From Craterostigma plantagineum (taxonomy: Eukaryota > Streptophyta > Magnoliopsida > Lamiales > Linderniaceae), in assembly GCA_027422505.1 (NCBI GenBank), contig JAPQWV010001624.1:1-64000 (forward strand): a DNA stretch of 64,000 nt, read 5' to 3'. The position numbers and the translations under genes are program-made. Position 1 is the stretch's first letter. Each line of letters begins with the position of its first letter. The notes beneath the pieces are model-generated. The model was not told where the DNA came from, did no database searches, and saw only the letters and a program-made list of their open reading frames with translations. Positions 15,777 through 64,000 of the stretch are shown here, piece by piece.

Positions 15777-17746
15777 ATGGCGGACCATAGAGTACCCGTC
15801 CACGACGAAGAGCCATCACTACAGGATCTCCTCAGGAATGACGCGCTAGGCAGTACTGAGTCGGCGATTGTCATCCCGCCGATCGAGAACAACAATTTCG
15901 AGCTGAAGCACTCTTGGCTTCAGATGATCTTCTAGACAGTCCAGTTTGAGGGCAATCCCGATGACGATCCCTACTCCCATCTGAAGGCTTTTCTGACGGT
16001 GACTGACACCATCAAGATCAACGGGGTCTCGGGCGATGCAATTAACTTGATGTTGTTCCCGTTCTCCCTGAAGTTCAGAGCGAAGGACTGGCTGGAGATG
16101 TTGCCACCTCGCTCAATCACTACATGGGAGGAGCTGCGAGCCGCGTTTATCGGCCACTATTTCCCGCTGACGAAGGTGGTAAGGTTAAAGACAGAGATCT
16201 CCCTATTCCATTAGAAGGACTCAGAAAACCTCTACGAGGTGTGGGAGCAATATAAGGCGCTACTGAAGAGGTGCCCGCAGCACGGGATGTCGAAGGAAGC
16301 CCAGATCAACCGATTTCACGAGGGGCTCAATGACCAGACTGTCCATATGCTAGACGGAGCCGCAGGAGGAGGACTCGTGAAGCTCAATGCTACCGACACT
16401 TGGAATCTGATCGAGGATTACTCGAGGAACAGCTTCATGAGGGGCAATACCAGGATGAAGACACCTGGTGTGTTCGGAGTGAGCGAGGAGACGGCCACTA
16501 ACGCTAAAATCGAGGCACTTTAGCAACAAATCGCGCGACGAACTCCCAGTTGCAGACGGTGATTGGCGCATTACTTCCCAAGTCCGGGCAAACTCAGCCC
16601 GTGAACGCCGTGGCCACCATCGCATCGACGCAGCACACGTCTTACGTGCCATTGTGCGAAATTTGTGGCGCAGCCCACGAGACATCAGAATGCCAACTTG
16701 GGCAGCCGCTGGAGCACGTAGACTATATGGGCAATTACCAAGGTGGCCAGCGAAGCTTCCAGCCTCGGGCACATCCAAACCCGACGTACGGGAATCAGAA
16801 CCATCAGGGCCAAGGACTGTCAGGATTTTAGCCCCGACCGTCCGGATTTCAAAATGGGCCACCACGACAGTACCAGAACGCGCCCGCAGGAGGATCCGAC
16901 GACATGAGGGAGATGAAGGATATGATGAAGGCACTTCTCACGAATTTCAGTAGCACCACCGCAGCCCACGAAAGCCGAATGACGAAGATGGAGGAGTACA
17001 TGGAGGCAAACGACTTGCGTGCTCAGAATACAGATGCCTCGATCAAGAGGTTGGAGCAGCAAGTGGGGCAATTAGCAAAGCAAATGGCGGGGCGAAATCA
17101 AGGACCACTCCCGAGCTACACCGAGACAAACCCCAAGGAGTATTGCAATGCGGTAACCCTGAGGAGCGGGAGAGGATTACAAGAAGCTCCCACCAAGCAG
17201 AATTTAAAGGAGAAAGTTAATTTCGAGGGCCACGACGAGCCAGAAGTGGAGGAAAGCAAGGGCGACAGAGTCGAGAAGGTCAAGGATGACGAGAGAAAGA
17301 CGCGACCATTCGTGAAGCCGTATCAACCAAAGATCCCATACCCAACTCGGTTGAGGGGAGCTACACCTGAAAAAGAGAATGTTCAACCTAAAAAGGAGGA
17401 GGCTGCACCCGAAATAGAAAAAGCGAGGGAGAATGAGCGGCGACCAGTGATGCCGTACCAGACGAAGATTCCCTATCCAGCACAGTTGAAGAAGGACAAA
17501 GACGAGGCGCTAATTGGCAGATTTATCGGTATGTGCAAAGAATTACATATTAACTTACCGTTTATTGAAGCTATTGTGCAGATGCCCAGTTTCGTTAAGT
17601 TCCTGATGGACTTGCTGACGAATCGACGGAATCTCGAACGTCTCCACGGTATACCTACGAGGAGAGTGCTCAGCGATACTCCAGAGCAAGATACCGAAAA
17701 AGCTCAAGGACCCAGGGAGTTTTACTATTCCTTGTTTGATAGGTGA
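15777..17746 (+). pseudogene. Gypsy gag (Athila-like capsid)
   Basis: The start is ATG 15777 (MADHRVPVHDEEPS), the first in-frame ATG after the leader. Capsid-type retrotransposon gag follows (FEGNPDDDPYSHLKAFL, then FPFSLKFRAKDWLEMLP and YEVWEQYKALLKRCPQHG), next an AAGG-containing loop and a linker. A Cys-rich CEICGAAHETSEC segment at about 16655-16695 stands where a knuckle would be, and a coiled-coil-like stretch lies at 16904-17090. Near the C-terminus is a duplicated PYQxKIPYPxxL unit (17320-17360 and 17452-17492), then HINLPFIEAIVQMPSFVKFL. Four stop codons at about 15934, 16213, 16521 and 16831 are all TAG where relatives have Gln. There are frameshifts at about 16530 and 17700. It would package element RNA in particles. 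Confidence 0.85.
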
Positions 17747-18500
17747 TTTAGTTGTTGGCATGCTTTAGCTGATCTAGGTGCTAGTATAAATTTAATGCCG
17801 TACTCCATGTTTAAGCGTTTAGAATTAGGTGAACCACGACCCACTAGAATGAGTATTCAACTGGCCGATAGATCATTAAAATACCCTCTAGGTGTTATCG
17901 AAGATGTTCTAGTTAAGGTCAATAAGTTCGTTGTCCCTGCTGATTTTCTGATCTTAGACATGGACGAGGATGAAAATGTTCCATTAATTCTAGGTAGACC
18001 ATTCTTAGCTACATGCGAGACCATGATAGATGTTAGGAATGGAACATTAACCTTGACAGTAGACGGCGAAAAAGTTATATTCAATATGGCTGATTCGATG
18101 AAAAAGAGCAACGAGCAAGATGATAAATGCTATTTCTTAGATGTCTTTGAGCGCGATTTTCTCTTTTCTGTGCAAGGTCTGTCACAGGTCAGCAAGCATG
18201 ATAGGCACACAATTATGGAAATCGATAAGTGTGGGGAGGAGATCGACGAACCCATCATAACCATCGACGAGAGCAGCAAAGAAGTTAAGGACAAGAGCCC
18301 AGTCGAGGAGCGAACGCCACTAGAGTTGAAATCGCTGCCCGACGAAAGGAGACACCGCCAAGGTATGGATGTAGGCGAGGAAAACTTAAGCAGAAAAGAG
18401 ATGCTGTACCTCGACTTCCAGCCACCTAAGCGAAGAAAGCACGTCCGGCTAAAGACGGTAAAGGAAGCGCTTCTTGGGAGGCAACCCAGGTTTTATCTAT
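17747..18500 (+). pseudogene. Gypsy aspartic protease and C-terminal tail
   Basis: The retropepsin-like domain opens with ADLGASINLMPYSMF (active-site D-L-G-A-S, 17771 onward), followed by SIQLADRSLKYPLGVIEDV, LILDMDEDENVPLILGRPFL and a second-strand region. It would cut the gag precursor as a dimer. The tail to about 18500 is acidic and basic by turns (EEIDEPIITIDESSKE) and ends in a conserved-looking EALLGRQPRF motif; beyond it the open frame runs into AT-rich, hydrophobic codons that look accidental. A one-base frameshift just upstream separates it from gag. The right arm has the same domain at 62629-63390. Confidence 0.8.
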
Positions 18501-20149
18501 CTAGTATTTTTTATTATGCCTATTATTATTACAATTCATGTTTTTCTGTTACGTTTAGTTTTCCTTTTAGTCATGTCAGGCATCACGAGTCACGATATGA
18601 CAACCATCACGCGTCTAGTCACGACCACGTCAATATTTTCCGTCAGGGAAGTTTCGTTCTCTTACACCTACTTTTCCCTTTCGTTTATTCAATTTTTACG
18701 TTGAGGACAACGTACGGCTTAAGTGTGGGGAGGGGAATTTAGGTTGAGAATGTACGTGAAATTTTTTTTATGTCGTGTCCGTGAGAATGTGCGTGAAATT
18801 TTTTTATGACGTGTCCGTGAGCTATCAATTTTGTTAGAAAGGCATGAATTATTAAAATCAGGCATGATTGTTTGCGTTTATCTCGAGTTGGTTTGCATGT
18901 TATGAAATCCTTGTGAGCAATTAGGATATGCATGACTGATTGAATCATGTTTGCCTGAATAGATATAGCACTGTTTTGAGAGATTCGTACACATAACCCT
19001 GTTTCATGTGAGAGTTTGAGCCTGACGAGCTTATGCTCATTTTTCTTGGTTGTGTGACGTTCCTAGTCTACATCTCTCTAGAACTTGCCTGTCTGATGCG
19101 TGTTGAAACTGGTTTTGGTGTGTTAGTGTGAAGATGATGAGGGCATTAGGAATTAAGTCCAGAGCCAAAATTCCCCACCATGACTAACCCCACTAGTTAG
19201 CCACTTTGAGCCTGAGCCTATTCGTTGCTTACCTCGTATGATATGAAATGCCCTTGACCCATATAAGCCTCCAGAGATTATATGAACCCAAATTCATTAG
19301 AATAGAGCAGAAGTCGAACTTGAGAGTTACTATTTCAGTGTATGATTTGATGTTCTTCTCTGCTATTCGTGATATGACTCGCCCCTGACTTGACCGTTTT
19401 CTGAAATGACCTGATCCCTTTCATAAGCATGCCCATAAACCTTTTGGCAAGATATAGGTTTTGGTAATAAGTATCCCTAGGTACACGGCATTAGCTGTGA
19501 CGATGTATTCTTTGCGACAAAAACCGAACCTTGATGTTTTAGGGAATAAGGGCAGTACACTAGAGCGTAATTAAGGGGAAAGGGCAGAAAATGAAAGGGA
19601 ACTGAGTTGACAGGGGTCGGGCAGAAAAGTCTAGGATTTCGTAGCGAGAATGTTGAGTCTTATGTTGGGGCATGTGACTATCAATTTGATCATGCTATAT
19701 TCTTTGAATTTTCGCTTATGTGTCCTAGCTTTAAGATTACGTGTTCAATATCTATGCTTGTCAAGTCATTATTATTTGACCCGAGAAGACCCAAGAAGAT
19801 CCTCAGATTTATGCTTGCCACTTTAAGTAGTAGATATGCGATTAGCTTGCAAGCCTATGGTAGGGGTCGGACTAGTGCACGATTTGAGTGATTCACTATA
19901 TGTTAACCTATACACTGAGTGATTTGAGCGAATCCCTGTGAGGTATAGTCTCGATTGGCAGTGCAAAGGAAGTTTAGGTCAACAAGTGCAAGTCATTAGT
20001 GCGATGTCCATGATTGTTTGCTTGATTCCGTTTTGTGCTTTCTAGCTTTGTTGATAAATTGCGAACAATCGTGCCGTTATCTTGATCTGATGCCTTTTCT
20101 GACTTCTAATTTACTTGAGGACAAGCAAATGCTTAAGTGTGGGGAGCTT
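18500..20149 (+). other. Gypsy non-coding 3' region with duplicated polypurine tract
   Basis: About 1.65 kb with no pol motifs in any frame. The motif TTGAGGACAA...GCTTAAGTGTGGGGAG occurs twice: at about 18699-18733, just after the protease ORF, and at 20115-20147, directly before the 3' LTR. The second is the expected polypurine tract; the first could be a central tract or mark a former LTR border. A 38-bp tandem duplication with the core tgtccgtgagaatgt is at about 18745-18820. Confidence 0.6.
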
Positions 20150-21688
20150 TGATAAACGTATCGTAGTACGTTTATCATAGTATTTAATTGGCTCATAATA
20201 GAGTTTTCGTAGTCATTTTATGCACTTATTAACCCTATTTCTGCTTGTTTTGGTATTATAAGGCTTTAGGACAAGTTTCGGGCGAAAAGGAGCGAAAACG
20301 AGGCAAAACGGCACGAAAACGATGAAAACTGGTGAAGGTCACGGCCGTGACACATAGTGCACCTGGCCCTGACACTTGGCAGAGAGTTAGACTGAAGATG
20401 GTCACGGCCGTGACACTTGCACCAGGCCGTGACCCATAGCAGCAGCATTAGAAAATTCATATCTCTCAATCCAGACCTTGGATTGAGAATTCGTTTGGTC
20501 AGAATCAAGATTGGCGAGTCTTCTATCTATGGTTAAAATTTCATGTCAATCGGACATCGTTTACCCCTCCATCTGAGAGAAATACGAAACTGCTGCAAAG
20601 CTGTTGAGGGGGTCACGGCCGTGACACTACTGCACCAGGCCGTGACGAACGGTAGTGAGCTCATTTTTTGCCCCGAGAGTGTCACGGCCGTGACCTATCT
20701 TGTCCCAGGCCGTGACCGTGTCAAATTTCACTATAAAAGCCCGATTTCGATCCCGAAAAGGGGGATTCTCACCAGATATCAACCCTAACTCATAAGAGAC
20801 GAATTACAGACGCCAGAAACGCATAATTCCATTGGAGAAGCGCGAGAGACGGATCAACGATGCAATCACGCCAAATTGAATGCAGAACGAAGATTCATCC
20901 GTGCCACCATCCCGATCATCAGTATTCGAGATCATGAATTCCTCTTCTTCGTTTCTTATTTCTTTCGTTGTTTCCCGTCAATTATGCGTAGCTAAATCCC
21001 CTATGTGTTTGGGATTAGATGAACGCTAGGATATTTCGTAATTAAGACATGTTTAATCGTGACTCGTGTTTATGACTTTTTATCTGTCTATGAAATTGTT
21101 TCGTCGCTTTAATATGTCTATCTGTTAAAGTGATCGTGTGGAAAATCGTTTACGGCGACAGCTAAACAACGATTAGGCCATTCGTAGAAGATAGGATTCG
21201 AGTATAGGGCGAAAGCAAATACTCGATCCTCGCCTTTAGTAATTACTGAACCTTAGATCCCCACGAGCATTTAGGGCGACAGCAAACTCGTGAGCGGGTT
21301 GGAAATTACTGCGTTCTAGTCAGAATCACGTAGGAGCGAGAATTCATTGTCTTAATCGATAGTACCTAGCCGGATTCGAATCCCGAGCACATCTCTATTA
21401 TCTGAAAGTTTTCACCAGTTTAGGCGTATTCTTTTAGTCTCTCATTGATTTAGGAGTAATCTGTTAGGATAGTCCGTAACACCACCGGCGTATTTTATTT
21501 AGGCTAAATATCGAGTCGATAGGTCACTACTAGTACTTGATTTATTCCTTGTGTTCGATACTCGTCTACTCACTTTACTGCACTACACACGATAGGTCCA
21601 CTGCCTATCGCACGTCGGTGATAGTAATTAGGTATTCGTTTTAATTATTACTTGTCGCACTTTTCATTCACACACCACGTGTCGATCA
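20150..21688 (+). repeat. Gypsy 3' LTR
   Basis: 1539 bp, TGATAAACG to GTGTCGATCA, followed by the TSD tctac (21689-21693). It contains the same palindromic repeat array, a TATA box CTATAAAAG at 20731-20739, and at its left end a perfect 10-bp inverted repeat GATAAACGTA/TACGTTTATC with a 6-base loop. Nearly identical to 59523-61061 in the right arm, and more different from its own 5' LTR. Confidence 0.93.
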
Positions 21689-21750
21689 TCTACATAGTTC
21701 AGTCCCACCAAACAATGTTTCTCCAAGAGTGTAATTAATGGGTTTGTCAT
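21689..21750 (-). pseudogene. Copia-B gag N-terminus (severed from the rest)
   Basis: The first 20 or so codons of gag (MTNPLITLLEKHCLVGLNY) start at 21750 on the minus strand and end in the TSD of the gypsy insertion. The remainder of gag continues at 14037. This is direct proof that the gypsy element landed in this ORF. The same fragment is at 59461-59522 in the right arm. Confidence 0.88.
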
Positions 21751-23357
21751 CTTAACTAATAGAGAAGAAAATAAAGTGCAGAAAATAAGCAGATAGTTAT
21801 GATTTGTAGTGTTTAATCAGACTAAATTAGGACTTTAAATTTTTGTCTGACTCCCACTATTTTTCTCAAAACCCTTTCTCCCGCTAGGCATTTCGGAAAC
21901 CTTGTTGAGTTGTTTCATAGTGGCGTTGAGTTCCCCGGGCTACTACAAACTAGCCTCAACTTAACAGCTTATTGGCTCGTTTGGTTAGCCGAGATCGTGC
22001 CCCAGACGTTTCTGTCACACAGAAGATTCAACATCTTCGTCTCAGCCAGGGTCCCTCAGCCGTAACTCGGATCATATTGGGAATGACTGTCCAAGTGCAA
22101 CCTATCAACGTCCTGCTCACCTTCCACTTTTCCGTGAACTTCATCCCCCGTAGGATAACTCTTTATTAGAGGGTGAAGAGTGGTCGGTGAGTGGCAATTC
22201 ATAATTGCATCCAAACTCGTTCACGCAAAGGCAAGGGTTTTGGCACCGTAACTCGGTCAACCGCAACCGTACCCCTAAGTCGTAACATTTTTTGACTTGA
22301 TAGAAGACAGGAGCCTAGCCCCTTTACTCACTTGATATTAAAGGTCTAACCTCGGGAGAATCCTCACAGTTTTAACACGAGCACATTATGCACATTATCA
22401 CATTCGAAACCAACACGCACATAATGGACTTTAATAGTAAACCTAGTTTCAAACTATTAAAGTAAATGTGAAAGATCGGGTATATTTCTAGTTTTATCCT
22501 AATTGTACAAGACAATAACACTCTACGTCTTCGGGCTTTGCTCGAAAGGACGCTTCGGCTACCAGCTCGTTCGTTCGGGTTCCTCTCGATCGACACTCGT
22601 ACGACCGTCATAACATAACTACAATAGCATGTGACGGGGAATCTATCCCTAAAAAACCGTCCGTCTTATCTAATGAAAACTGTAAAGTACAACCCGGGGG
22701 GACCTTGTCACCCTTAACATATCACCCGGCAAAAACCATAACCTAATCCCCAATCAATCACCACGTTATTCAAATAACATGCATCACGACAAATTCAACA
22801 CATTTATTTCCGAGCCTAAATCGAATTTTGGCTTTTAAATGGTCCGGGCCTAGCAAATGTATCTTGCGTCGTAGGATGGCCTAGACCAGGCCCATCGGGC
22901 CTGTGTCGAGGATGCTCGCGCCATGCGACCTGCCAGCCGCGTGCACCGCGCGCAGCCACCGCGCGCACAGTCATACCTAATTTCCGTGCATCCACGCGCG
23001 GCTTTCCCGTGCACTGCGTGCACCCATGTGTGCAGCCCGTGCCTCTTGTGCCGCATACCCCACGTGCGGTCAGCCCTATGCGAGGCGGTACGCCCGCGGC
23101 CAGCTCGTTTTGAGTCGCGCACCCAGCGTGCCTTGCGCGCTGGCTGCCCGTGTGTCATGCGCACCATGCGCACGGCTAGGAGCAGGCCTCAAGCTGCGTG
23201 CAGCCCGCCCTGAGTCGCGCTTCGCATGCGACTCGACGCAGCCCCACTGGCCCCGCGCGCGGGCTGCCTGGGCGCCGTGTGCGCCATGTGCGCGGCTAAG
23301 GCTTTCGGGTTTTTCGTGGCCTTTTGTCATAGTCCCGTGACTTTAACCGAGCCTATT
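21751..23357 (-). other. Copia-B 5' leader with GC-rich stretch
   Basis: 1.6 kb between the primer site and gag, unusually long for a copia leader. The part at 22850-23340 is very GC-rich, with many GCGCGC, TGCGCA and CGTGC runs, in an otherwise average-GC element. Long open frames there on both strands are a by-product of composition: they have no recognisable domains and are Arg/Ala/Cys-rich. The matching region of the right arm (57813-58380) differs by an indel of about 45 bp near 58210-58260. Confidence 0.55.
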
Positions 23358-23369
23358 GCTCTGATACCA
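23358..23369 (-). promoter_or_regulatory. Copia-B primer-binding site (tRNA-iMet type)
   Basis: The minus strand reads TGGTATCAGAGC one base after the end of the 5' LTR, the usual copia primer site complementary to initiator tRNA-Met. Confidence 0.9.
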
Positions 23370-23370
23370 C

Positions 23371-25380
23371 TGTTGGGAATTCCCGAGGGCCCTGGACCCA
23401 CGTTCCTAGAACGGCGGAATTTTAAAATCTCACGAGGTTTCCCGCCTATCCAAGATCGCTCGGCAACAAACACGAGAACGTATTGACATAAAGAGATAAG
23501 AGATCAGCCATGATTCCTTGTTGAAATCTCTTAACGATGGCTAGCTTCGAATCCTTCGAATCCCCGAGGCGTAGTGTCCCTCTCCTACGCCAAAAGCACA
23601 CGAACGGGACGCCTTCTTTGCGCAAGATCGTCAAGCCGGCACCTTACTAACGTCGCAGCTGTTCTTGCATGTGCGGCTAGGCCAAGAACGGACTGCTTGC
23701 TGCCCCTGAGAGAGGGAGTGCGAGAGAGAAAGTGGTGAGAGGAGAAAACTATTAGGTTTTACTCTCTCTTGCTTGTATTTCGAAAAATTATCTTCCACTT
23801 TAGGATCTCGAAAATCCTTCTTTATACCTCTTAGGATTAGCCAAAAATAGGTTATGATGGATGGAGAAAAATCCTCAAACCTCCCCTTTTACCAAGTCTT
23901 CGTTTTACCAAGTAATGAATTCAAAATTCAAACATTATATTTAATTAATTAAATATCCAATACCTTAATTAATTAAAATACCATATTTAGTATATTTTAA
24001 ATATATAATATCCAATATAAATATATTTAATAATTTTCGAAATTTTATCTAATAAAAATTCGAAACTTATATATATATCCGATATACATTATCTAATATT
24101 ATTTCTCTAAGAAAATAATAAAGATCTAAATCTAATTTAAATCATATACTAAATATTCAATATCAAATATTTTATTTCAAAAATATATCGTGAGGTGAAA
24201 ATACCATTTTACCCCTCACTAGTCAAACTTAGTATTTTCGGCCGATCAAGGCTTTGGCCAAGCCCCAAACCCTAATGTCACAATCTAGGACCTAGCCTTG
24301 TCTCTCTCTGATGACGACGGTGTATCGGTTGCCCTTTTTAAGCCCGACTCTCTTGGTTCGTCTCAACCGGCCCAGGAGGTATCTTGGAGTTCGGTATTCA
24401 CCTAGCCATCCCCGTGGTACCGAACAAATCCCAAGTTAAGTACGAATTTGATCTAATCATAATCCACGAACCGACTGTAGATTTTCGTCATACGTATAAA
24501 CCCTTTACGTTTGTCCCGGTCGAGTGAAAGTCACACATAGTCAAACTTATATAACTCGACTCTATGTCGTTTATGTCGGTGAAAGTTCTGAAACTACACT
24601 CCACGACTATCATGAGTCAGTTATATGCTCTGGCCAGAGACTTGGATAAATTCCCGCACATTAAACTTGCCATAGGACGTTAACCTCGAATTTAATCGAG
24701 ACCGTAAATCGCGCTCCGCGGTTCAACCGACAATCACATCGAAAAGTCAAGACCGCATTTCGCCGCTGACCCATGCCACCTTCAAGACGGGCCTAGCAAA
24801 CTAGTGACAAGTCAAGACCTCAAGATCAACCCCAAGTTAACCCTTTCGGTCTAAGGTTCACGCATACTACTACAATCAATCGTTCGATCAAGGACAATCC
24901 AAGCATGTGATCGTTCGATTACGAGTCAGTGTCCAAATACAGATAATCCCCTGATTCATCTTGTATCATTTTACGGGCTCCCACTTCCCAAGTGAACGGT
25001 TGGCACAACCATATTGGACCCATCGACAAACAAGTCGTACGTGTCATTCCAGTCACCCTACTGGAGACTTAGACTTATGGAATATTTTAATATTACAGTA
25101 TCTCAGCTTACTGGTGCCCCTCTCTGTCCCCACAGAATCAGTAACTGAACTGCCAATATTTGGGTTTTATTAATTTGTCTTATCCACCCAGACTGCAAGG
25201 TGAAATCTTTAGACTAACTAATACTTTGCCTTTTAATTTATTCATTCAATAATTAATTAATGGTAAATAAAGTCATTCCATTAATAGAAGTAATCAAATT
25301 ACATCACTAAACACTACACATTAGCAAATTGCCCTCGTACTCCCAGTCCCCGTACGGGATCTAGGACATATACCTCAACA
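23371..25380 (-). repeat. Copia-B 5' LTR
   Basis: 2010 bp, TGTTGGGAATTCC...TACCTCAACA, followed by the TSD aaata at 25381. It carries the roughly 150-bp internal block missing from the other LTR. Nearly identical to the right-arm LTR 55791-57799. Confidence 0.93.
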
Positions 25381-25386
25381 AAATAC

Positions 25387-26231
25387 TGTTGATGCTGACT
25401 AGCTCAGCATTGACAATGTTGAGGTCACATTCCAACCATCATTGTTGTCTGTGAACTGGTCCACCTTCGATTTTATCTTTCACCGTTTAACCTTTATTAG
25501 TGACCTTATTTACTGATATGCAGGACGTGGTTAAGTGCTGGAACGAGTCAAAACGAGTGGATAGCGTGTGGATTCAGCTGAGTGAAAATAGGACTGCACT
25601 GACTAAAAATGGAAGATATGAGATCAACCAATACGGAGAGAAGATTCGAATCAAATATTTACTATATTTGGGGAGATCTTCATGGAGATATTTTGGGAGA
25701 TTATCAAGGGATCTCTTACCGATTCAAACGAGAGCCAAGATCTATAAATAAGAGTTATTTTCGAGCTGCAATCAACGACTTCGAGAGAGCTTTCATGGAG
25801 TAACTTTTGAGGGACACATTGAGCAAAAATCACGAGTATGAGCGATCACGAGAGTTGTCTTTTTAGCCCAGTGTCTCGTTTGCAAAAGTCTTAGGACTTT
25901 GTAGGTTTGCAGAATCGTTAGATTCGTAGTTTGTCTAGGCCTTGTTTGTACTATCTTCGGGTAGTTGTTTTGTAATCCATCTTCGTCGTGGAATTTGCGC
26001 CTTGAGGCACGCAACAAGTTTTTGACTTGCTGCACAAAGTTTACATCTCGTGTTTATCAGTCTTCGTCACTAAGTATTCAAATATTCCGTTGTACACTTG
26101 AGTTAGATTGAGTGTTACCCCAACATTACATCCAACATCCAGTTGAGTTAGATTGAGTGTTACCCCAACATTACATCCAACATCCAGTTTATACTTAGTA
26201 TTTTACATCCATATCGAACGGGACCACTTCA
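25387..26231 (+). repeat. Copia-C 5' LTR
   Basis: TGTTGATGCTGAC...GACCACTTCA, 845 bp. A TATA box TCTATAAATAAG is at 25741-25752. Near the 3' end is a 45-bp tandem duplication (26098-26187) that the right-arm copy (54976-55784) does not have. It is followed after three bases by the primer site. Confidence 0.88.
26098..26187 (+). repeat. Arm-specific 45-bp tandem duplication
   Basis: ttgagttagattgagtgtta starts at 26098 and again at 26143, two perfect copies in a row. The corresponding stretch of the right arm (about 55015-55065) has one copy. Confidence 0.92.
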
Positions 26232-26234
26232 AAG

Positions 26235-26246
26235 TGGTATCAGAGC
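26235..26246 (+). promoter_or_regulatory. Copia-C primer-binding site (tRNA-iMet type)
   Basis: TGGTATCAGAGC three bases after the 5' LTR end. Mirrored at about 54961-54972 on the minus strand in the right arm. Confidence 0.88.
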
Positions 26247-26283
26247 TTACGCTTGACGTTACTAAGTGCTAAGAATCTCTACA

Positions 26284-27878
26284 ATGGATCTTACAAGCTC
26301 AAACCATCTCAGCAAAGTCCCTGTGTTAGACGGCACCAACTATGCTCATTGGAAGGTCCGCGTACGCCAGTGCATCAAATCTATAGATACACGTGCATGG
26401 GAAGTTGTACTCAATGGATACACTCCACCTCGAACTGCCCCAGACGCTGATGGCGAAGTTGTTGACAAACCAATCGACGAATGGACGGTTCCTGAGCGAA
26501 ACACAGCGAGTTCAACGACAAAGTCCTTAATGCCATCTTTTCTTCGGTTGACATCTTCATGTTCAAAATCATCCAAACTGCACTACTGCGAAGAATGTGT
26601 GGGATCTACTTCAGAGGTATTGCCAAGGTGATGCGAGTGTAAGGGAAACCAGACTACGGCTTCTCCTCAACCAGTTCAAAAACCTCAGAATGAAGGAAGA
26701 TGAGGACATCACCACGTACTTCGGCAAGATTCTGACGATTTCAAGCGAGTGTGCTAGCCTCAGAGATCCGATCTCGAATAAGGTATTAAATTCTAAAGAT
26801 GTTCGTACTCTAACTGAAAAATTTAATGTGAAGGTAGCGGCGGTTGAGGAAGCACACAACTTGGCCAATATGGACTTCAACACGTTGATAAATATTAGGT
26901 TCAAACCGAGGATGACTCTGACGAAGATGAGAATATGGCTATGCTTGTGAAACAGTTCACGAAGTTCTTGAAGAAAAAGAATGTGGAGTCGAATGTTGGC
27001 CCAACATTCAAGAAAGATCAGAATTCAAAAGAACCGTTGTCTGCTCCTCCGTTCATCAAACGTAAACCAGATGGAAAGAAGAAGAACTTCAACTGGGAGT
27101 CAGTGAGATGCCATGCATGTTAGGGTTGGGGCCATTTTGCCAACGAATGTGCGAACACCCTTCGCAACCACGCAGAAGCTATGTTGATCGATCTTTCCGA
27201 CGATGAAGATGAAGAACAGTGCCCTAAGGAGTCAAGGCAATCATCAGTAACCATACAGTCCTTCTTAGACAACGAAGAAGAAGATCACAAATCGGCTTTA
27301 TGGCGGTAACTGATGTTGAGCCAACATTTGACTCAACATTTGAGAAACAAATTATATTTTATTATGATGACTCAAACTGTTTTGATGGGTATCTAAGTTC
27401 TGATGATGCCTAGTTAGAAACTGACGTTTGCGCGGAAGTCCAGATTAATGAAGCCGTCAAGATGTTGTCCGCGCAATATGAGAAGGAAAAGGCAAAAATT
27501 CGGAACTAAGAACCACCGTGAAAACACTATCCGAGGAAAATGAGAAGAGCGTAAAGATGATTGAGAGTCTACTTGAAGGGATGAACAAATTGGAGGCCGT
27601 ACTGACACATAACGACAAAGAAATCGACAAGCTACAGAAGCGAGTCGATGAGGCTGACCGGACCTTTCTAAGATGAACAAGGGTAAATCGACCCTTGATG
27701 AGGTATTATCGTTAGGTATTTTTGATAAGCAAGGTTTAAGATTTAATTCTCAGCCTACTACTGATTCTGTTATTCATGATAGACCTAAGATAGTATTTGT
27801 TAAGGAAAATGCCGAGCATGTCACGAATGATAGAAGTGAGACTGTGATCATTAAGAAAAGTACTAAGCATGCTGCCAC
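26284..27878 (+). pseudogene. Copia-C gag (N-terminal and middle part)
   Basis: Starts at ATG 26284 (MDLTSSNHLSKVPVLDGTNY), first ATG after the primer site. Seen in order: an N-terminal gag motif DGTNYAHWKVRVRQCI; a UBN2/retrotran-gag-2-like helical domain across a frameshift near 26500 (KNVWDLLQRYCQG, then LLLNQFKNLRMKEDEDITTYFGKI); a basic KKK-rich stretch; a first zinc knuckle in which a TAG stop at about 27121 replaces the residue after CHAC (C-H-A-C-stop-G-W-G-H-F-A-N-E-C); then an acidic and coiled-coil tail. The hAT-like element cuts it after KHAA at 27878. The rest, with a second knuckle, is at 39450. Confidence 0.8.
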
Positions 27879-30610: not shown

Positions 30611-30697
30611 TGGGAGGGATACTTAGGAACAAAACGATACTAGCAGAGCGGAATAACCTAGGGGCTACTAGGAGCAGAATGGAACTAGAGGGGTAGC

Positions 30698-32228: not shown

Positions 32229-32479
32229 TGATTAGGGTTTGAAGGTTGAGAGAAGTTTGAAGAAGATGATTGAATGATGAAGGTTGAGGAACGGTTTGAA
32301 TCTTTTAATGGAACAAGGTCGGTTTATTTTTGGAAGAGATAAGATGGATTTCGAATTTTGAAATTTGAAATTTCAAATTAGAGAGAGGAGAAAACTGTCA
32401 GAAATATCTGACTGATTTGACGGGATCTCATGATTAAGGAAGGGATGTGACTAGACTGAATAGGAATATATATTAAATA

Positions 32480-32765: not shown

Positions 32766-32775
32766 AATGATGGAA

Positions 32776-37689: not shown

Positions 37690-37691
37690 AA

Positions 37692-47700: not shown

Positions 47701-47800
47701 CTAGGGAATCTCACCTAACAGCACTTAAGCGTATACTTAGATATATCAGGGTACTGTAAATTCTGGTCTATGGTACTCTCATACGGATGAATTCCCATTA

Positions 47801-52726: not shown

Positions 52727-53348
52727 CATTGCATTTTATCGGAACGGTAACAGACGTTCCGCTCAGTTATTTTTATTTAGAGTTTAAAATTATTTATAGA
52801 CATTTATGTTAATTAAATTGAATATTATAGCAAGGTATAAATATTAGTATTTTTCTTTAGGCTGAAAAATTAATATATTGATTTGTTAATCATTAATTAT
52901 ATATTTAAAAGATGGAATTACAAAAAATTCGGCTAATTTTTTTACTAATGAAAACTGGATATTAACATTTTATTTCAAAGTAATTATTATTTGTAAATGA
53001 ATTTTCAGATTTTATTTATTTAGTGGTCTTTTCTCATTATAATTGAATGACAGACCCAATAAAAGATAAGCCCAAGTATAAACCCATCATAAGGGTTACT
53101 GTTCACCGTCTTCTTCGATCGACCTGATCTGAAGAAACATACCAGATCCATCCGATTATTCGGCGTTCCCGTTCTAAAATCGTCGTTCCACCCGAAAAAA
53201 TGCCGATCCGACCGTTTTCTCGGCCGCTGCAATCAGATCCGATAAAAGACCGGAACTTTGGCACGGAGACCATCGTTCCGGTTCCAACTCGGCCGTTCCG
53301 GACGTCTTGACGGCGATCTGGCGAACCATGGTGGCAGCATGCTTAGTA

Positions 53349-54926
53349 CTTTTCTTAATGATCACAGTCTCACTTCTATCATTCGTGACATGCTCGGCAT
53401 TTTCCTTAACAAATACTATCTTAGGTCTATCATGAATAACAGAATCAGTAGTAGGCTGAGAATTAAATCTTAAACCTTGCTTATCAAAATACCTAACGAT
53501 AATACCTCATCAAGGGTCGATTTACCCTTGTTCATCTTAGAAAGGTCCGGTCAGCCTCATCGACTCGCTTCTGTAGCTTGTCGATTTCTTTGTCCTTATG
53601 TGTCAGTACGGCCTCCAATTTGTTCATCCCTTCAAGTAGACTCTCAATCATCTTTACGCTCTTCTCATTTTCCTCGGATAGTGTTTTCACGGTGGTTCTT
53701 AGTTCCGAATTTTTGCCTTTTCCTTCTCATATTGCGCGGACAACATCTTGACGGCTTCATTAATCTGGACTTCCGCGCAAACGTCAGTTTCTAACTAGGC
53801 ATCATCAGAACTTAGATACCCATCAAAACAGTTTGAGCATCATAATAAAAAATAATTTGTTTCTCAAATGTTGAGTCAAATGTTGGCTCAACATCAGTTA
53901 CCGCCATAAAGCCGATTTGTGATCTTCTTCTTCGTTGTCTAAGAAGGACTGTATGGTTACTGATGATTGCCTTGACTCCTTAGGGCACTGTTCTTCATCT
54001 TCATCGTCGGAAAGATCGATCAACATAGCTTCTGCGTGGTTGCGAAGGGTGTTCGCACATTCGTTGGCAAAATGGCCACAACCCTAACATGCATGGCATC
54101 TCACTGACTCCCAGTTGAAGTTCTTCTTCTTTCCATCTGGTTTACGTTTGATGAACGGAGGAGCAGACAACGGTTCTTTTGAATTCTGATCTTTCTTGAA
54201 TGTTGGGCCAACATTCGACTCCACATTCTTTTTCTTCAAGAACTTCGTGAACTGTTTCACAAGCATAGCCATATTCTCATCTTCGTCAGAGTCATCCTCG
54301 GTTTGAACCTAATATTTATCAACGTGTTGAAGTCCATATTGGCCAAGTTGTGTGCTTCCTCAACCGCCGCTACCTTCACATTAAATTTTTCAGTTAGAGT
54401 ACGAACATCTTTAGAATTTAATACCTTATTCGAGATCGGATCTCTGAGGCTAGCACACTCGCTTGAAATCGTCAGAATCTTGCCGAAGTACGTGGTGATG
54501 TCCTCATCTTCCTTCATTCTGAGGTTTTTGAACTGGTTGAGGAGAAGCCGTAGTCTGGTTTCCCTTACACTCGCATCACCTTGGCAATACCTCTGAAGTA
54601 GATCCCACACATTCTTCGCAGTAGTGCAGTTTGGATGATTTTGAACATGAAGATGTCAACCGAAGAAAAGATGGCATTAAGGACTTTGTCGTTGAACTCG
54701 CTGTGTTTCGCTCAGGAACCGTCCATTCGTCGATTGGTTTGTCAACAACTTCGCCATCAGCGTCTGGGGCAGTTCGAGGTGGAGTGTATCCATTGAGTAC
54801 AACTTCCCATGCACGTGTATCTATAGATTTGATGCACTGGCGTACGCGGACCTTCCAATGAGCATAGTTGGTGCCGTCTAACACAGGGACTTTGCTGAGA
54901 TGGTTTGAGCTTGTAAGATCCATTGT
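53349..54926 (-). pseudogene. Copia-C gag, right copy
   Basis: Mirror of 26284-27878 with the same start (ATG at 54926 on the minus strand), the same frameshift in the UBN2-like domain and the same TAG after CHAC at about 54081, so these lesions predate the duplication. Confidence 0.8.
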
Positions 54927-54975
54927 AGAGATTCTTAGCACTTAGTAACGTCAAGCGTAAGCTCTGATACCACTT

Positions 54976-55784
54976 TGAAGTGGTCCCGTTCGATATGGAT
55001 GTAAAATACTAAGTATAAACTGGATGTTGGATGTAATGTTGGGGTAACACTCAATCTAACTCAAGTGTACAGCGGAATATTTGAATACTTAGTGACGAAG
55101 ACTGATAAACACGAGATGTAAACTTTGTGCAGCAAGTCAAAAACTTGTTGCGTGCCTCAAGGCGCAAATTCCACGACGAAGATGGATTACAAAACAACTA
55201 CCCGAAGATAGTACAAACAAGGCCTAGACAAACTACGAATCTAACGGTTCTGCAAACCTACAAAGTCCTAAGACTTTTGCAAACGAGACACTGGGCTAAA
55301 AAGACAACTCTCGTGATCGCTCACACTCGTGATTTTTGCTCAATGTGTCCCTCAAAGTTACTCCATGAAAGCTCTCTCGAAGTCGTTGATTGCAGCTCGA
55401 AAATAACTCTTATTTATAGATCTTGGCTCTCGTTTGAATCGGTAAGAGATCCCTTGATAATCTCCCAAAATATCTCCTTGAAGATCTCCCCAAATATAGT
55501 AAATATTTGATTCGAATCTTCTCTCCGTATTGGTTGATCTCATATCTTCCATTTTTAGTCAGTGCAGTCCTATTTTCACTCAGCTGAATCCACACGCTAT
55601 CCACTCGTTTTGACTCGTTCCAGCACTTAACCACGTCCTGCATATCAGTAAATAAGGTCACTAATAAAGGTTAAACGGTTTTTGGGCATGAAAGATAAAA
55701 TCGAAGGTGGACCAGTTCACAGACAACAATGATGGTTGGAATGTGACGTCAACATTGTCAATGCTGAGCTAGTCAGCATTAACA
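54976..55784 (-). repeat. Copia-C 5' LTR, right copy
   Basis: Mirror of 25387-26231 without the 45-bp tandem duplication. It is followed by the TSD gtatt (55785-55789), one base, and then the Copia-B LTR. Confidence 0.88.
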
Positions 55785-55790
55785 GTATTT

Positions 55791-57799
55791 TGTTGAGGTA
55801 TATGTCCTAGATCCCGTACGGGGACTGGGAGTACGAGGGCAATTTGCTAATGTGTAGTGTTTAGTGATGTAATTTGATTACTTCTATTAATGGAATGACT
55901 TTATTTACCATTAATTATTATTGAATGAATAAATTAAAAGGCAAAGTATTAGTTAGTCTAAAGATTTCACCTTGCAGTCTGGGTGGATAAGACAAATTAA
56001 TAAAACCCAAATATTGGCAGTTCAGTTACTGATTCTGTGGGGACAGAGAGGGGCACCAGTAAGCTGAGATACTGTAATATTAAAATATTCCATAAGTCTA
56101 AGTCTCCAGTAGGGTGACTGGAATGACACGTACGACTTGTTTGTCGATGGGTCCAATATGGTTGTGCCAACCGTTCACTTGGGAAGTGGGAGCCCGTAAA
56201 ATGATACAAGATGAATCAGGGGATTATCTGTATTTGGACACTGACTCGTAATCGAACGATCACATGCTTGGATTGTCCTTGATCGAACGATTGATTGTAG
56301 TAGTATGCGTGAACCTTAGACCGAAAGGGTTAACTTGGGTTGATCTTGAGGTCTTGACTTGTCACTAGTTTGCTAGGCCCGTCTTGAAGGTGGCATGGGT
56401 CAGCGGCGAAATGCGGTCTTGACTTTTCGATGTGATTGTCGGTTGAACCGCGGAGCGCGATTTACGGTCTCGATTAAATTCGAGGTTAACGTCCTATGGC
56501 AAGTTTAATGTGCGGGAATTTATCCAAGTCTCTGGCCAGAGCATATAACTGACTCATGATAGTCGTGGAGTGTAGTTTCAGAACTTTCACCGACATAAAC
56601 GACATAGAGTCGAGTTATATAAGTTTGACTATGTGTGACTTTCACTCGACCGGGACAAACGTAAAGGGTTTATACGTATGACGAAAATCTACAGTCGGTT
56701 CGTGGATTATGATTAGATCAAATTCGTACTTAACTTGGGATTTGTTCGGTACCACGGGGATGGCTAGGTGAATACCGAACTCCAAGATACCTCCTGGGCC
56801 GGTTGAGACGAACCAAGAGAGTCGGGCTTAAAAGGGCAACCGATACAACGTCGTCATCAGAGAGAGACAAGGCTAGGTCCTAGATTGTGACATTAGGGTT
56901 TGGGGCTTGGCCAAAGCCTTGATCGGCCGAAAATACTAAGTTTGACTAGTGAGGGGTAAAATGGTATTTTCACCTCACGATATATTTTTGAAATAAAATA
57001 TTTGATATTGAATATTTAGTATATGATTTAAATTAGATTTAGATCTTTATTATTTTCTTAGAGAAATAATATTAGATAATGTATATCGGATATATATATA
57101 TAAGTTTCGAATTTTTATTAGATAAAATTTCGAAAATTATTAAATATATTTATATTGGATATTATATATTTAAAATATACTAAATATGGTATTTTAATTA
57201 ATTAAGGTATTGGATATTTAATTAATTAAATATAATGTTTGAATTTTGAATTCATTACTTGGTAAAACGAAGACTTGGTAAAAGGGGAGGTTTGAGGATT
57301 TTTCTCCATCCATCATAACCTATTTTTGGCTAATCCTAAGAGGTATAAAGAAGGATTTTCGAGATCCTAAAGTGGAAGATAATTTTTCGAAATACAAGCA
57401 AGAGAGAGTAAAACCTAAGAGTTTTCTCCTCTCACCACTTTCTCTCTCGCACTCTCTCTCTCAGGGGCAGCAAGCAGTCCGTTCTTGGCCTAGCCGCACA
57501 TGCAAGAACAGCTGCGACGTTAGTAAGGTGCCGGCTTGACGATCTTGCGCAAAGAAGGCGTCCCGTTCGTGTGCTTTTGGCGTAGGAGAGGGACACTACG
57601 CCTCGGGGATTCGAAGGATTCGAAGCTAGCCATCGTTAAGAGATTTCAACAAGGAATCATGGCTGATCTCTTATCTCTTTATGTCAATACGTTCTCGTGT
57701 TTGTTGCCGAGCGATCTTGGATAGGCGGGAAACCTCGTGAGATTTTAAAATTCCGCCGTTCTAGGAACGTGGGTCCAGGGCCCTCGGGAATTCCCAACA
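55791..57799 (+). repeat. Copia-B 5' LTR, right copy
   Basis: 2009 bp, TGTTGAGGTATATG...GGAATTCCCAACA, nearly identical to 23371-25380 and clearly more different from 8731-10573. This shows the arm duplication is younger than the insertion of Copia-B. Confidence 0.93.
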
Positions 57800-57812
57800 G
57801 TGGTATCAGAGC

Positions 57813-59460
57813 AATAGGCTCGGTTAAAGTCACGGGACTATGACAAAAGGCCACGAAAAACCCGAAAGCCTTAGCCGCGCACATGGCGCACACGGCGCCC
57901 AGGCAGCCCGCGCGCGGGGCCAGTGGGGCTGCGTCGAGTCGCATGCGAAGCGCGACTCAGGGCGGGCTGCACGCAGCTTGAGGCCTGCTCCTAGCCGTGC
58001 GCATGGTGCGCATGACACACGGGCAGCCAGCGCGCAAGGCACGCTGGGTGCGCGACTCAAAACGAGCTGGCCGCGGGCGTACCGCCTCGCATAGGGCTGA
58101 CCGCACGTGGGGTATGCGGCACAAGAGGCACGGGCTGCACACATGGGTGCACGCAGTGCACGGGAAAGCCGCGTGTGGATGCACGGAAATTAGGTATGAC
58201 TGTGCGCGTGTGTGCGAGCTGTGCTAGGCTAAGAGCGCACGCGGATCGCGGCTGGCCGCATGGTGCGCGCGGCACGAGGCTGGCAGGTCGCATGGCGCGA
58301 GCATCCTCGACACAGGCCCGATGGGCCTGGTCTAGGCCATCCTACGACGCAAGATACATTTGCTAGGCCCGGACCATTTAAAAGCCAAAATTCGATTTAG
58401 GCTCGGAAATGTGTTGAATTTGTCGTGATGCATGTTATTTGAATAACGTGGTGATTGATTGGGGATTAGGTTATGGTTTTTGCCGGGTGATATGTTAAGG
58501 GTGACAAGGTCCCCCCGGGTTGTACTTTACAGTTTTCATTAGATAAGACGGACGGTTTTTTAGGGATAGATTCCCCGTCACATGCTATTGTAGTTATGTT
58601 ATGACGGTCGTACGAGTGTCGATCGAGAGGAACCCGAACGAACGAGCTGGTAGCCGAAGCGTCCTTTCGAGCAAAGCCCGAAGACGTAGAGTGTTATTGT
58701 CTTGTACAATTAGGATAAAACTAGAAATATACCCGATCTTTCACATTTACTTTAATAGTTTGAAACTAGGTTTACTATTAAAGTCCATTATGTGCGTGTT
58801 GGTTTCGAATGTGATAATGTGCATAATGTGCTCGTGTTAAAACTGTGAGGATTCTCCCGAGGTTAGACCTTTAATATCAAGTGAGTAAAGGGGCTAGGCT
58901 CCTGTCTTCTATCAAGTCAAAAATGTTACGACTTAGGGGTACGGTTGCGGTTGACCGAGTTACGGTGCCAAAACCCTTGCCTTTGCGTGAACGAGTTTGG
59001 ATGCAATTATGAATTGCCACTCACCGACCACTCTTCACCCTCTAATAAAGAGTTATCCTACGGGGGATGAAGTTCACGGAAAAGTGGAAGGTGAGCAGGA
59101 CGTTGATAGGTTGCACTTGGACAGTCATTCCCAATATGATCCGAGTTACGGCTGAGGGACCCTGGCTGAGACGAAGATGTTGAATCTTCTGTGTGACAGA
59201 AACGTCTGGGGCACGATCTCGGCTAACCAAACGAGCCAATAAGCTGTTAAGTTGAGGCTAGTTTGTAGTAGCCCGGGGAACTCAACGCCACTATGAAACA
59301 ACTCAACAAGGTTTCCGAAATGCCTAGCGGGAGAAAGGGTTTTGAGAAAAATAGTGGGAGTCAGACAAAAATTTAAAGTCCTAATTTAGTCTGATTAAAC
59401 ACTACAAATCATAACTATCTGCTTATTTTCTGCACTTTATTTTCTTCTCTATTAGTTAAG
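57813..59460 (+). other. Copia-B leader, right copy
   Basis: Mirror of 21751-23357, including the GC-rich block (57840-58340) with an extra ~45 bp near 58210-58260. Frames in the GC-rich block are compositional and not counted as genes. Confidence 0.55.
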
Positions 59461-59522
59461 ATGACAAACCCATTAATTACACTCTTGGAGAAACATTGTT
59501 TGGTGGGACTGAACTATGTAGA
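59461..59522 (+). pseudogene. Copia-B gag N-terminus, right copy
   Basis: ATG 59461 followed by the same 20 or so codons as 21750-21689, ending in the gypsy TSD gtaga (59518-59522). Confidence 0.88.
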
Positions 59523-61061
59523 TGATCGACACGTGGTGTGTGAATGAAAAGTGCGACAAGTAATAATTAAAACGAATACCTAATTACTATCACCGACGTG
59601 CGATAGGCAGTGGACCTATCGTGTGTAGTGCAGTAAAGTGAGTAGACGAGTATCGAACACAAGGAATAAATCAAGTACTAGTAGTGACCTATCGACTCGA
59701 TATTTAGCCTAAATAAAATACGCCGGTGGTGTTACGGACTATCCTAACAGATTACTCCTAAATCAATGAGAGACTAAAAGAATACGCCTAAACTGGTGAA
59801 AACTTTCAGATAATAGAGATGTGCTCGGGATTCGAATCCGGCTAGGTACTATCGATTAAGACAATGAATTCTCGCTCCTACGTGATTCTGACTAGAACGC
59901 AGTAATTTCCAACCCGCTCACGAGTTTGCTGTCGCCCTAAATGCTCGTGGGGATCTAAGGTTCAGTAATTACTAAAGGCGAGGATCGAGTATTTGCTTTC
60001 GCCCTATACTCGAATCCTATCTTCTACGAATGGCCTAATCGTTGTTTAGCTGTCGCCGTAAACGATTTTCCACACGATCACTTTAACAGATAGACATATT
60101 AAAGCGACGAAACAATTTCATAGACAGATAAAAAGTCATAAACACGAGTCACGATTAACACATGTCTTAATTACGAAATATCCTAGCGTTCATCTAATCC
60201 CAAACACATAGGGGATTTAGCTACGCATAATTGACGGGAAACAACGAAAGAAATAAGAAACGAAGAAGAGGAATTCATGATCTCGAATACTGATGATCGG
60301 GATGGTGGCACGGATGAATCTTCGTTCTGCATTCAATTTGGCGTGATTGCATCGTTGATCCGTCTCTCGCGCTTCTCCAATGGAATTATGCGTTTCTGGC
60401 GTCTGTAATTCGTCTCTTATGAGTTAGGGTTGATATCTGGTGAGAATCCCCCTTTTCGGGATCGAAATCGGGCTTTTATAGTGAAATTTGACACGGTCAC
60501 GGCCTGGGACAAGATAGGTCACGGCCGTGACACTCTCGGGGCAAAAATGAGCTCACTACCGTTCGTCACGGCCTGGTGCAGTAGTGTCACGGCCGTGACC
60601 CCCTCAACAGCTTTGCAGCAGTTTCGTATTTCTCTCAGATGGAGGGGTAAACGATGTCCGATTGACATGAAATTTTAACCATAGATAGAAAATTCGCCAA
60701 TCTTGATTCTGACCAAAAGAATTCTCAATCCAAGGTCTGGATTGAGAGATATGAATTTTCTAATGCTGCTGCTATGGGTCACGGCCTGGTGCAAGTGTCA
60801 CGGCCGTGACCATCTTCAGTCTAACTCTCTGCCAAGTGTCAGGGCCAGGTGCACTATGTGTCACGGCCGTGACCTTCACCAGTTTTCATCGTTTTCGTGC
60901 CGTTTTGCCTCGTTTTCGCTCCTTTTCGCCCGAAACTTGTCCTAAAGCCTTATAATACCAAAACAAGCAGAAATAGGGTTAATAAGTGCATAAAATGACT
61001 ACGAAAACTCTATTATGAGCCAATTAAATACTATGATAAACGTACTACGATACGTTTATCA
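59523..61061 (-). repeat. Gypsy 3' LTR, right copy
   Basis: TGATCGACACG...ACGTTTATCA, 1539 bp, same length as 20150-21688. It contains the palindromic GTCACGGCCGTGAC array (60495-60875) and the terminal 10-bp inverted repeat (61035-61060). Confidence 0.93.
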
Positions 61062-62650
61062 AAGCTCCCCACACTTAAGCATTTGCTTGTCCTCAAGTAA
61101 ATTAGAAGTCAGAAAAGGCATCAGATCAAGATAACGGCACGATTGTTCGCAATTTATCAACAAAGCTAGAAAGCACAAAACGGAATCAAGCAAACAATCA
61201 TGGACATCGCACTAATGACTTGCACTTGTTGACCTAAACTTCCTTTGCACTGCCAATCGAGACTATACCTCACAGGGATTCGCTCAAATCACTCAGTGTA
61301 TAGGTTAACATATAGTGAATCACTCAAATCGTGCACTAGTCCGACCCCTACCATAGGCTTGCAAGCTAATCGCATATCTACTACTTAAAGTGGCAAGCAT
61401 AAATCTGAGGATCTTCTTGGGTCTTCTCGGGTCAAATAATAATGACTTGACAAGCATAGATATTGAACACGTAATCTTAAAGCTAGGACACATAAGCGAA
61501 AATTCAAAGAATATAGCATGATCAAATTGATAGTCACATGCCCCAACATAAGACTCAACATTCTCGCTCCGAAATCCTAGACTTTTCTGCCCGACCCCTG
61601 TCAACTCAGTTCCCTTTCATTTTCTGCCCTTTCCCCTTAATTACGCTCTAGTGTACTGCCCTTATTCCCTAAAACATCAAGGTTCGGTTTTTGTCGCAAA
61701 GAATACATCGTCACAGCTAATGCCGTGTACCTAGGGATACTTATTACCAAAACCAAAATGCTTATGAAAGGGATCAGGTCATTTCAGAAAACGGTCAAGT
61801 CAGGGGCGAGTCATATCACGAATAGCAGAGAAGAACATCAAATCATACACTGAAATAGTAACTCTCAAGTTCGACTTCTGCTCTATTCTAATGAATTTGG
61901 GTTCATATAATCTCTGGAGGCTTATATGGGTCAAGGGCATTTCATATCATACGAGGTAAGCAACGAATAGGCTCAGGCTCAAAGTGGCTAACTAGTGGGG
62001 TTAGTCATGGTGGGGAATTTTGGCTCTGGACTTAATTCCTAATGCCCTCATCATCTTCACACTAACACACCAAAACCAGTTTCAACACGCATCAGACAGG
62101 CAAGTTCTAGAGAGATGTAGACTAGGAACGTCACACAACCAAGAAAAATGAGCATAAGCTCGTCAGGCTCAAACTCTCACATGAAACAGGGTTATGTGTA
62201 CGAATCTCTCAAAACAGTGCTATATCTATTCAGGCAAACATGATTCAATCAGTCATGCATATCCTAATTGCTCACAAGGATTTCATAACATGCAAACCAA
62301 CTCGAGATAAACGCAAACAATCATGCCTGATTTTAATAATTCATGCCTTTCTAACAAAATTGATAGCTCACGGACACGTCATAAAAAAATTTCACGCACA
62401 TTCTCACGGACACGACATAAAAAAATTTCACGTACATTCTCAACCTAAATTCCCCTCCCCACACTTAAGCCGTACGTTGTCCTCAACGTAAAAATTGAAT
62501 AAACGAAAGGGAAAAGTAGGTGTAAGAGAACGAAACTTCCCTGACGGAAAATATTGACGTGGTCGTGACTAGACGCGTGATGGTTGTCATATCGTGACTC
62601 GTGATGCCTGACATGACTAAAAGGAAAACTAAACGTAACAGAAAAACATG
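61062..62650 (-). other. Gypsy non-coding 3' region, right copy
   Basis: Mirror of 18500-20149 with both purine-tract motifs (about 61064-61096 and 62455-62490 on the plus strand as complements). No pol motif seen. Confidence 0.6.
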
Positions 62651-62689
62651 AATTGTAATAATAATAGGCATAATAAAAATACTAGATAG

Positions 62690-63440
62690 ATAAACCTGGG
62701 TTGCCTCCCAAGAAGCGCTTCCTTTACCGTCTTTAGCCGGACGTGCTTTCTTCGCTTAGGTGGCTGGAAGTCGAGGTACAGCATATCTTTTCTGCTTAAG
62801 TTTTCCTCGCCTACATCCATACCTTGGCGGTGTCTCCTTTCGTCGGGCAGCGATTTCAACTCTAGTGGCGTTCGCTCCTCGACTGGGCTCTTGTCCTTAA
62901 CTTCTTTGCTGCTCTCGTCGATGGTTATGATGGGTTCGTCGATCTCCTCCCCACACTTATCGATTTCCATAATCGTGTGCCTATCATGCTTGCTGACCTG
63001 TGACAGACCTTGCACAGAAAAGAGAAAATCGCGCTCAAAGACATCTAAGAAATAGCATTTATCATCTTGCTCGTTGCTCTTTTTCATCGAATCAGCCATA
63101 TTGAATATAACTTTTTCGCCGTCTACTGTCAAGGTTAATGTTCCATTCCTAACATCTATCATGGTCTCGCATGTAGCTAAGAATGGTCTACCTAGAATTA
63201 ATGGAACATTTTCATCCTCGTCCATGTCTAAGATCACAAAATCAGCAGGGACAACGAACTTATTGACCTTAACTAGAACATCTTCGATAACACCTAGAGG
63301 GTATTTTAATGATCTATCGGCCAGTTGAATACTCATTCTAGTGGGTCGTGGTTCACCTAATTCTAAACGCTTAAACATGGAGTACGGCATTAAATTTATA
63401 CTAGCACCTAGATCAGCTAAAGCATGCCAACAACTAAATC
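62690..63440 (-). pseudogene. Gypsy protease and tail, right copy
   Basis: Same domain as 17747-18500: LADRSLKYPLGVIEDVLVKV, then VPLILGRPFLATCETMIDV and the EALLGRQPRF end. The DLGAS codons are at about 63402-63416. One substitution near VPADF (Leu in the left arm, Val here). Confidence 0.8.
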
Positions 63441-64000
63441 ACCTATCAAACAAGGAATAGTAAAACTCCCTGGGTCCTTGAGCTTTTTCGGTATCTTGCT
63501 CTGGAGTATCGCTGAGCACTCTCCTCGTAGGTATACCGTGGAGACGTTCGAGATTCCGTCGATTCGTCAGCAAGTCCATCAGGAACTTAACGAAACTGGG
63601 CATCTGCACAATAGCTTCAATAAACGGTAAGTTAATATGTAATTCTTTGCACATACCGATAAATCTGCCAATTAGCGCCTCGTCTTTGTCCTTCTTCAAC
63701 CGTGCTGGATAGGGAATCTTCGTCTGGTACGGCATCACTGGTCGCCGCTCATTCTCCCTCGCTTTTTCTATTTTGGGTGCAGCCTCCTCTTTTTAGGTTG
63801 AACATTCTCTTTTTCAGGTGTAGCTCCCCTCAACGATGGCTTGAAGCTTCGCTGGCCACCTTGGTAATTGCCCATATAGTCTACGTGCTCCAGCGGCTGC
63901 CCAAGTTGGCATTCTGATGTCTCGTGGGCTGCGCCACAAATTTCGCACAATGGCACGTAAGACGTGTGCTGCGTCGATGCGATGGTGGCCAGGGCGTTCA
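63441..64000 (-). pseudogene. Gypsy gag C-terminal part, right copy, with internal deletion
   Basis: HINLPFIEAIVQMPSFVKFL and one MPYQTKIPYPARLKKDK unit are present. Then, at about 63828-63835, the sequence jumps to the Cys-rich CEICGAAHETSECQ region: about 590 bp (left-arm 16761-17349), including the coiled coil and the first PYQ unit, are missing. The short direct repeat at the joint is minimal. The window ends upstream of this. Confidence 0.8.

Follow-up and report, generated by a model that had tools for sequence, protein, structure and literature searches.

In one survey (Breakinator, PMC12870357; this and the further comparisons with it refer to excerpts of the paper), fold-back chimeras accounted for about 0.55-0.6% of the ONT genomic reads. 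One of the fold-back reads that it shows has about 2 kb between its halves, and its default rule assigns a read to the fold-back class when the second half starts within 200 bp of the end of the first. Whole-genome amplification also yields palindromic chimeras, which spoil long-read assemblies; in the cases treated in the excerpts of the Pacasus paper (PMC6218980) the polymerase turns back on its product and copies it. The same excerpts mention the primate Y palindromes, in which gene conversion takes place.

The window analysed here, the whole stretch of 64,000 nucleotides, comprises bases 1-64000 of contig C1624 (79,000 bp) of assembly G000 (1.71 Gb, 6,262 contigs), and contains a giant inverted repeat. 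As in the excerpted fold-backs (PMC12870357), the two halves lie on one locus on opposite strands, at 180348-221755 of a second contig, C311; they are near-perfect mirror images, and the path through the locus is straight elsewhere. Unlike what the 200-bp rule of that survey prescribes, the halves miss each other by 1,550 bp (181898 against 180348), and unlike the fold-backs described in its excerpts, this one lies in a contig rather than a read and its arms carry real-looking differences. C1624 is therefore outside the strict 200-bp class, yet works like a fold-back; in the wider sense it fits a misjoin, in that its junction is absent from the other assembled copy, C311. With the amplification palindromes, as far as the Pacasus excerpts describe them (PMC6218980), it shares the form of an inverted chimera, but there is no sign that this plant library was amplified. 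With the Y palindromes mentioned there it shares long arms of high identity, a spacer and a tract that is extra alike. Unlike them, C1624 has a straight counterpart within its assembly, and near its centre the differences are deletion-type noise. We consider the palindrome to be an assembly fold-back misjoin rather than a real feature of the chromosome, with a probability of roughly 0.88. This reading is favoured by the straight copy in C311, by error-like deletions at the fold and by contig pieces that abut to the base.

Extent and contents of the inverted repeat

By self-BLAST, 16602-39831 is mirrored as the reverse complement at 64000-41364, in collinear main segments of 97.4-99.5% identity, and in an anchored alignment the mirror stops at 39831/41364. 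The match is far beyond chance. The first-pass annotation had described a giant inverted repeat around a spacer of about 1.5 kb, and both methods bear this out, the spacer measuring 1,532 bp. The limits of 16601 and 64000 that it gave for the arms had to be moved, as the arm extends to either end of the 79,000-bp contig (1590-15813 mirrors 79000-64760 at 99.6%) and continues into the abutting contigs C4912 and C3566. The paired coordinates, said to add up to nearly constant values, do so in the main segments (about 81,184-81,195) but not left of 16764, where the sum is 80,602 because the right arm lacks 582 bp. The right arm has several indels of its own, of 5-582 bp. The fold lies at about 40.6 of 79 kb; since C1624 looks like a cut piece, this is not equivalent to a position within a read. 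The features are as follows.

16602..39831, plus strand: left arm, in the contig from base 1 of C1624; C1624 1-39831 equals C311:221755-181898, minus.
41364..64000, minus strand: right arm, in the contig to its end at 79000; C1624 41364-79000 equals C311:181898-220168, plus.
39832..41363, no strand: spacer of 1,532 bp, as a whole unrepeated in the arms; in C311 (180348-181897) it runs directly into the right arm.
39829..39832, no strand: junction found in C1624 only, joining C311 181898 to 180348, with CTC common at 39829-39831.
8731..25380, minus strand: LTR element A, with a piece of RVT_2 reverse transcriptase and target-site duplication AAATA; it straddles the window part of the left arm.
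14038..21688, plus strand: LTR element B, nested in A, with an aspartyl-protease-like piece slightly under the Pfam cut-off and target-site duplication TCTAC.
28462..39391, minus strand: LTR element C, Copia-type, with gag, zinc-knuckle and integrase pieces and target-site duplication CAATG, mirrored at 41811-52726.
40663..41297, plus strand: spacer repeat with inverted ends 40666-40693 and 41268-41295 and TA at either edge.
39948..40099, minus strand: inverted copy of the edge of element C in the spacer, 152 bp, 94% identity.

The 5-bp target-site duplications claimed for the nested LTR elements were read from the flanks of three elements, and that of element C is identical in both arms. The arms are indeed more alike than the LTR pairs that they contain (94.6-97.6%), as had been noted from the sequence. 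The gag frame at 36070-37329 has 420 open codons in the left arm and is broken into pieces of at most 152 in the right arm. A homologue search (112 proteins) places the window in a flowering plant.

When the spacer was compared with itself, the only inverted match was within the repeat element 40663..41297. For roughly this stretch, a putative pogo-like (Emigrant-type) element, there are 37 further matches elsewhere in the assembly at 83-90% identity, among the best 40 of 12,156 candidates. Diverged inverted matches of 89-97% pair 25947-26233 with 40430-40670 and 25837-25951 with 41292-41404. The part of the spacer outside the element thus matches, inverted, the stretch that follows LTR element A, so that an older dispersed repeat is present in both spacer and arm.

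The straight copy and the abutting contigs

In the 100 kb of it that were compared, contig C311 (717,000 bp) carries the locus once and unmirrored, in the order upstream DNA, spacer and arm, and no palindrome was found there. C1624 1-39831 aligns to C311 221755-181898 on the minus strand as a single BLAST match (99.67%, 47 mismatches, 52 gap openings), and 39829-79000 aligns to 180348-220168 on the plus strand in consecutive segments of 98.5-99.7%. The path of C1624 thus follows C311 down to 181898, jumps to 180348 and runs up again, and 39831/39832 is its sole join missing from C311. A search of the assembly gave no other place spanning this junction among the best 40 of 12,156 candidates. 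A second region of C311 likewise runs straight through the equivalent of 180348, at 403990 (389437-404892 against 165775-181249, 99.5% over 15.5 kb).

This second copy has features of its own. C311:156370-181249 and 225449-231274 match 380001-404892 and 404885-410609, respectively, at 98-99.5%, and the second copy is without the nest of LTR elements, which amounts to 44.2 kb (181249-225449). At the break the two matches overlap by 8 bp, 54 bp inside the repeat element of the spacer. The second copy may represent a deletion, the other haplotype joined into the same contig, or a misassembly. Elsewhere in C311, 140001-141237 has an indel-rich inverted match to 232502-231275 (98.2%, 5 mismatches, 16 gap openings), possibly another badly polished or folded piece. 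A further contig, C3622 (39,346 bp), matches C311:221001-224000 at 99%; several copies of this neighbourhood are thus present in the assembly, which fits unmerged haplotypes or a duplication.

Two contigs abut C1624 to the base. The last 100 bases of C4912, which is exactly 25,000 bp long, are C311 221855-221756 reversed, and C1624 starts at 221755. C3566, exactly 40,000 bp long and stored in the opposite orientation, has as its first 100 bases, when reversed, C311 220169-220268, and C1624 ends at 220168. Unique, non-mirrored flanks were found neither within C1624 nor in the 2.2 kb of C4912 and 3.0 kb of C3566 that were compared with C311; both contigs start inside the arm. Hi-C misjoin correction cuts on a kilobase grid. 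Exact multiples of 1,000 made up 6 of 20 contigs of 78-80 kb in one listing and 5 of 20 in another, and so many exact-kilobase lengths are a sign of grid cutting. Judging from these sequence ends, C4912, C1624 and reversed C3566 would once have formed one longer folded contig that was cut on such a grid.

Differences between the arms and around the fold

Over 16601-39831 the arms differ by 49 substitutions, by 73 indels of 1-3 bp, of which 53 are in homopolymers, and by 17 longer indels. The largest stretches present only in the left arm are 582 bp (16764) and 131 bp (37862), and those present only in the right arm 132 bp (at 29401) and 46 bp (at 22954). A 45-bp tandem unit (26098) is a further large difference, and several edges of the largest differences are untidy. 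These differences are not distributed like mutations. Substitutions and small indels number 36 and 24 in 16601-31999, 0 and 24 in 32000-37800, where 21 of the 24 indels are in homopolymers, and 13 and 25 in 37801-39831. For the LTR pairs the corresponding ratios are 67:5, 41:6 and 30:11 when the left arm is used (138 to 22 in total) and 62:9, 44:7 and 34:18 when the right arm is used. Homopolymer letters in 16601-32600 are absent 15 times from the right arm and twice from the left. When indels in four LTR sets were polarised by the third LTR copy, 7 fell in the left arm, 11 in the right and 8 in neither, showing that both arms carry indels. Transition/transversion counts were indecisive (19/30 between the arms against 43/24, 21/20 and 15/15 in the LTR pairs).

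To divide the differences between the arms we used C311 181898-220168 as reference. The left arm has 22 private substitutions and 34 private small indels, and the right arm 54 and 61, with 15 larger indels; the two arms have 22 substitutions and 11 small indels in common. A difference was counted as shared when position and letters agreed after separate pairwise alignments, so that gaps placed differently in repeats can count as private. Private small indels are concentrated at the fold. In the left arm 17 of the 34 lie within 2 kb of it (expected 1.8, p = 1.6e-13), and in the right arm 14 of the 61 do (p = 2.5e-6), with 28 of the 61 within 5 kb (p = 4e-10). Taking both arms together, the 5 kb next to the fold hold 49 private small indels, of which 43 are deletions and 6 insertions. 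Private substitutions are mildly raised within 2 kb (left 5 of 22, p = 0.005; right 8 of 54, p = 0.007) and not enriched within 5 kb (p = 0.15 left, 0.41 right).

The spacer of C1624 differs from that of C311 by 14 deletions of 1-2 letters each, 1 insertion and 2 substitutions. In the 903 columns in which all three could be aligned, C1624 alone departs from the two straight copies in 10 gap columns (9 events), all of them deletions and the last lying where the compared stretch stops, and in 2 substitutions; the first copy in C311 departs alone in none of the 903. Consensus quality thus drops at the junction, and the pile-up of deletions would be the mark of a noisy long-read consensus built from few reads at the fold.

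Proposed origin of the fold, and the search for folds in other contigs

The fold-back misjoin that we favour would have arisen as follows. In the plant the locus would be straight, with upstream DNA followed by the 1.5-kb spacer and then by a long array in which LTR elements are nested. When the library was made, or in assembly, sequence running down the array and through the spacer would have been rejoined to the array about 1.55 kb before the end (180348 to 181898), giving a contig that reads the array up on one side and down on the other. One or a few fold-back chimeric reads would be the cause. Since substitutions and larger indels separate the two arms, the reads brought together in the join most likely came from two copies that resemble each other (haplotypes or paralogues), two haplotypes being the presumed source. 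The folded contig would then have been cut on the kilobase grid, presumably from Hi-C data, and C1624, 79,000 bp long and folded near its centre, would be the middle one of the pieces. One arm continues directly into the spacer and the other skips it. A strand end that folded back and primed on three bases would give this geometry, and so would a template followed by a shorter complement. Two other origins were rejected. A hairpin adapter that was missed in one PacBio molecule does not account for the 1.5-kb genomic spacer and the differences between the arms, and the arms cannot be copies of one molecule only, given arm-private substitutions both against the third LTR copy and against C311.

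Several points count against an artefact. A single folded molecule cannot explain the private substitutions of the two arms and the 15 larger right-arm indels, the identical centre of a real palindrome would also be hard to polish, scaffolding software might cut a real palindrome too, and among the 11 other contigs of exact-kilobase length that were sampled only C1622 is palindromic, with a centre that is not self-inverse. We also weighed a real and recent inverted duplication on one haplotype, with C311 as the other haplotype. It would have begun with a 3' end broken at C311 180348, which would have snapped back, found three matching bases near 181898 to prime on, and been extended along the arm. 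Within the LTR nest this would give arms of at least 37 or 38 kb, and possibly at least 65 kb, around a 1.5-kb loop. Snap-back agrees with a loop contiguous with one arm and with the CTC common at the join. What is more, 22 substitutions against C311 are common to both arms, as a real palindromic haplotype would show, and the offset of 1.55 kb is larger than in typical artefact reads. Kilobase offsets are ordinary for in vivo fold-back inversions. We nevertheless consider such a duplication unlikely, and what weight it has comes mainly from the shared substitutions and the large offset. Reads across a true junction would have mended in polishing the deletion-type differences that peak at the fold and spacer. 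No unique flank was seen on either side in the parts compared, C4912 and C3566 starting in the same arm, and a straight copy is present in C311.

An older palindrome kept alike by gene conversion between the arms would explain the 5.8-kb tract without substitutions (32000-37800) beside arms with 36 substitutions in 15.4 kb, as about 13.6 would be expected in it at the outer-arm rate (p = 1.3e-6). However, conversion would have erased the small indels of this tract, most of which are private to one arm with C311 as reference, and C311 shows no palindrome in the 100 kb compared, so that this is the least probable of the explanations considered. Hardly more credible is a mis-traversal of the assembly graph at the genuine small inverted repeat at 39948-40099, with no chimeric read involved. 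The LTR edge of element C does have its inverted copy there, but the odd junction is 117 bp from it, neither in it nor at its edge, and 152 bp at 94% is far below the overlaps that long-read assemblers use. The first-pass annotation had leaned towards a palindrome, rare and unstable, that arose as the last large event and had named an assembly fold-back as one option; the straight copy in C311, the deletions at the fold and the abutting contigs favour that option over its leaning. Were the palindrome true, so large and so young a fold-back would be a rarity in a plant.

The ends of 15 other contigs of 78-80 kb were compared, 11 of exact-kilobase length (C1602, C1604, C1606, C1620, C1621, C1622, C1623, C1625, C1626, C1654 and C1656) and four of other lengths (C1618, C1619, C1627 and C1628), with 2.0-2.5 kb taken from each end, so that a fold further than about 1 kb from the middle would be missed. 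Inverted ends were found in one of the 15 (one of the 11), C1622, which like C1624 is 79,000 bp long: 474-2500 matches 79000-76975 inverted at 99.75%. Its bases 38900-40900 gave no self-inverse match, and a spacer would therefore exceed about 1.5 kb. The unplaced contigs of the assembly hold at least one, and probably two, folded pieces. If such contigs are left in, they simulate giant palindromes, cause LTR elements to be counted twice and introduce false frameshifts and indels into repeats. The ends of C1625 share just a 49-bp direct match. Within C1622, bases 20000-20150 are the exact reverse of 59477-59327, which indicates long arms.
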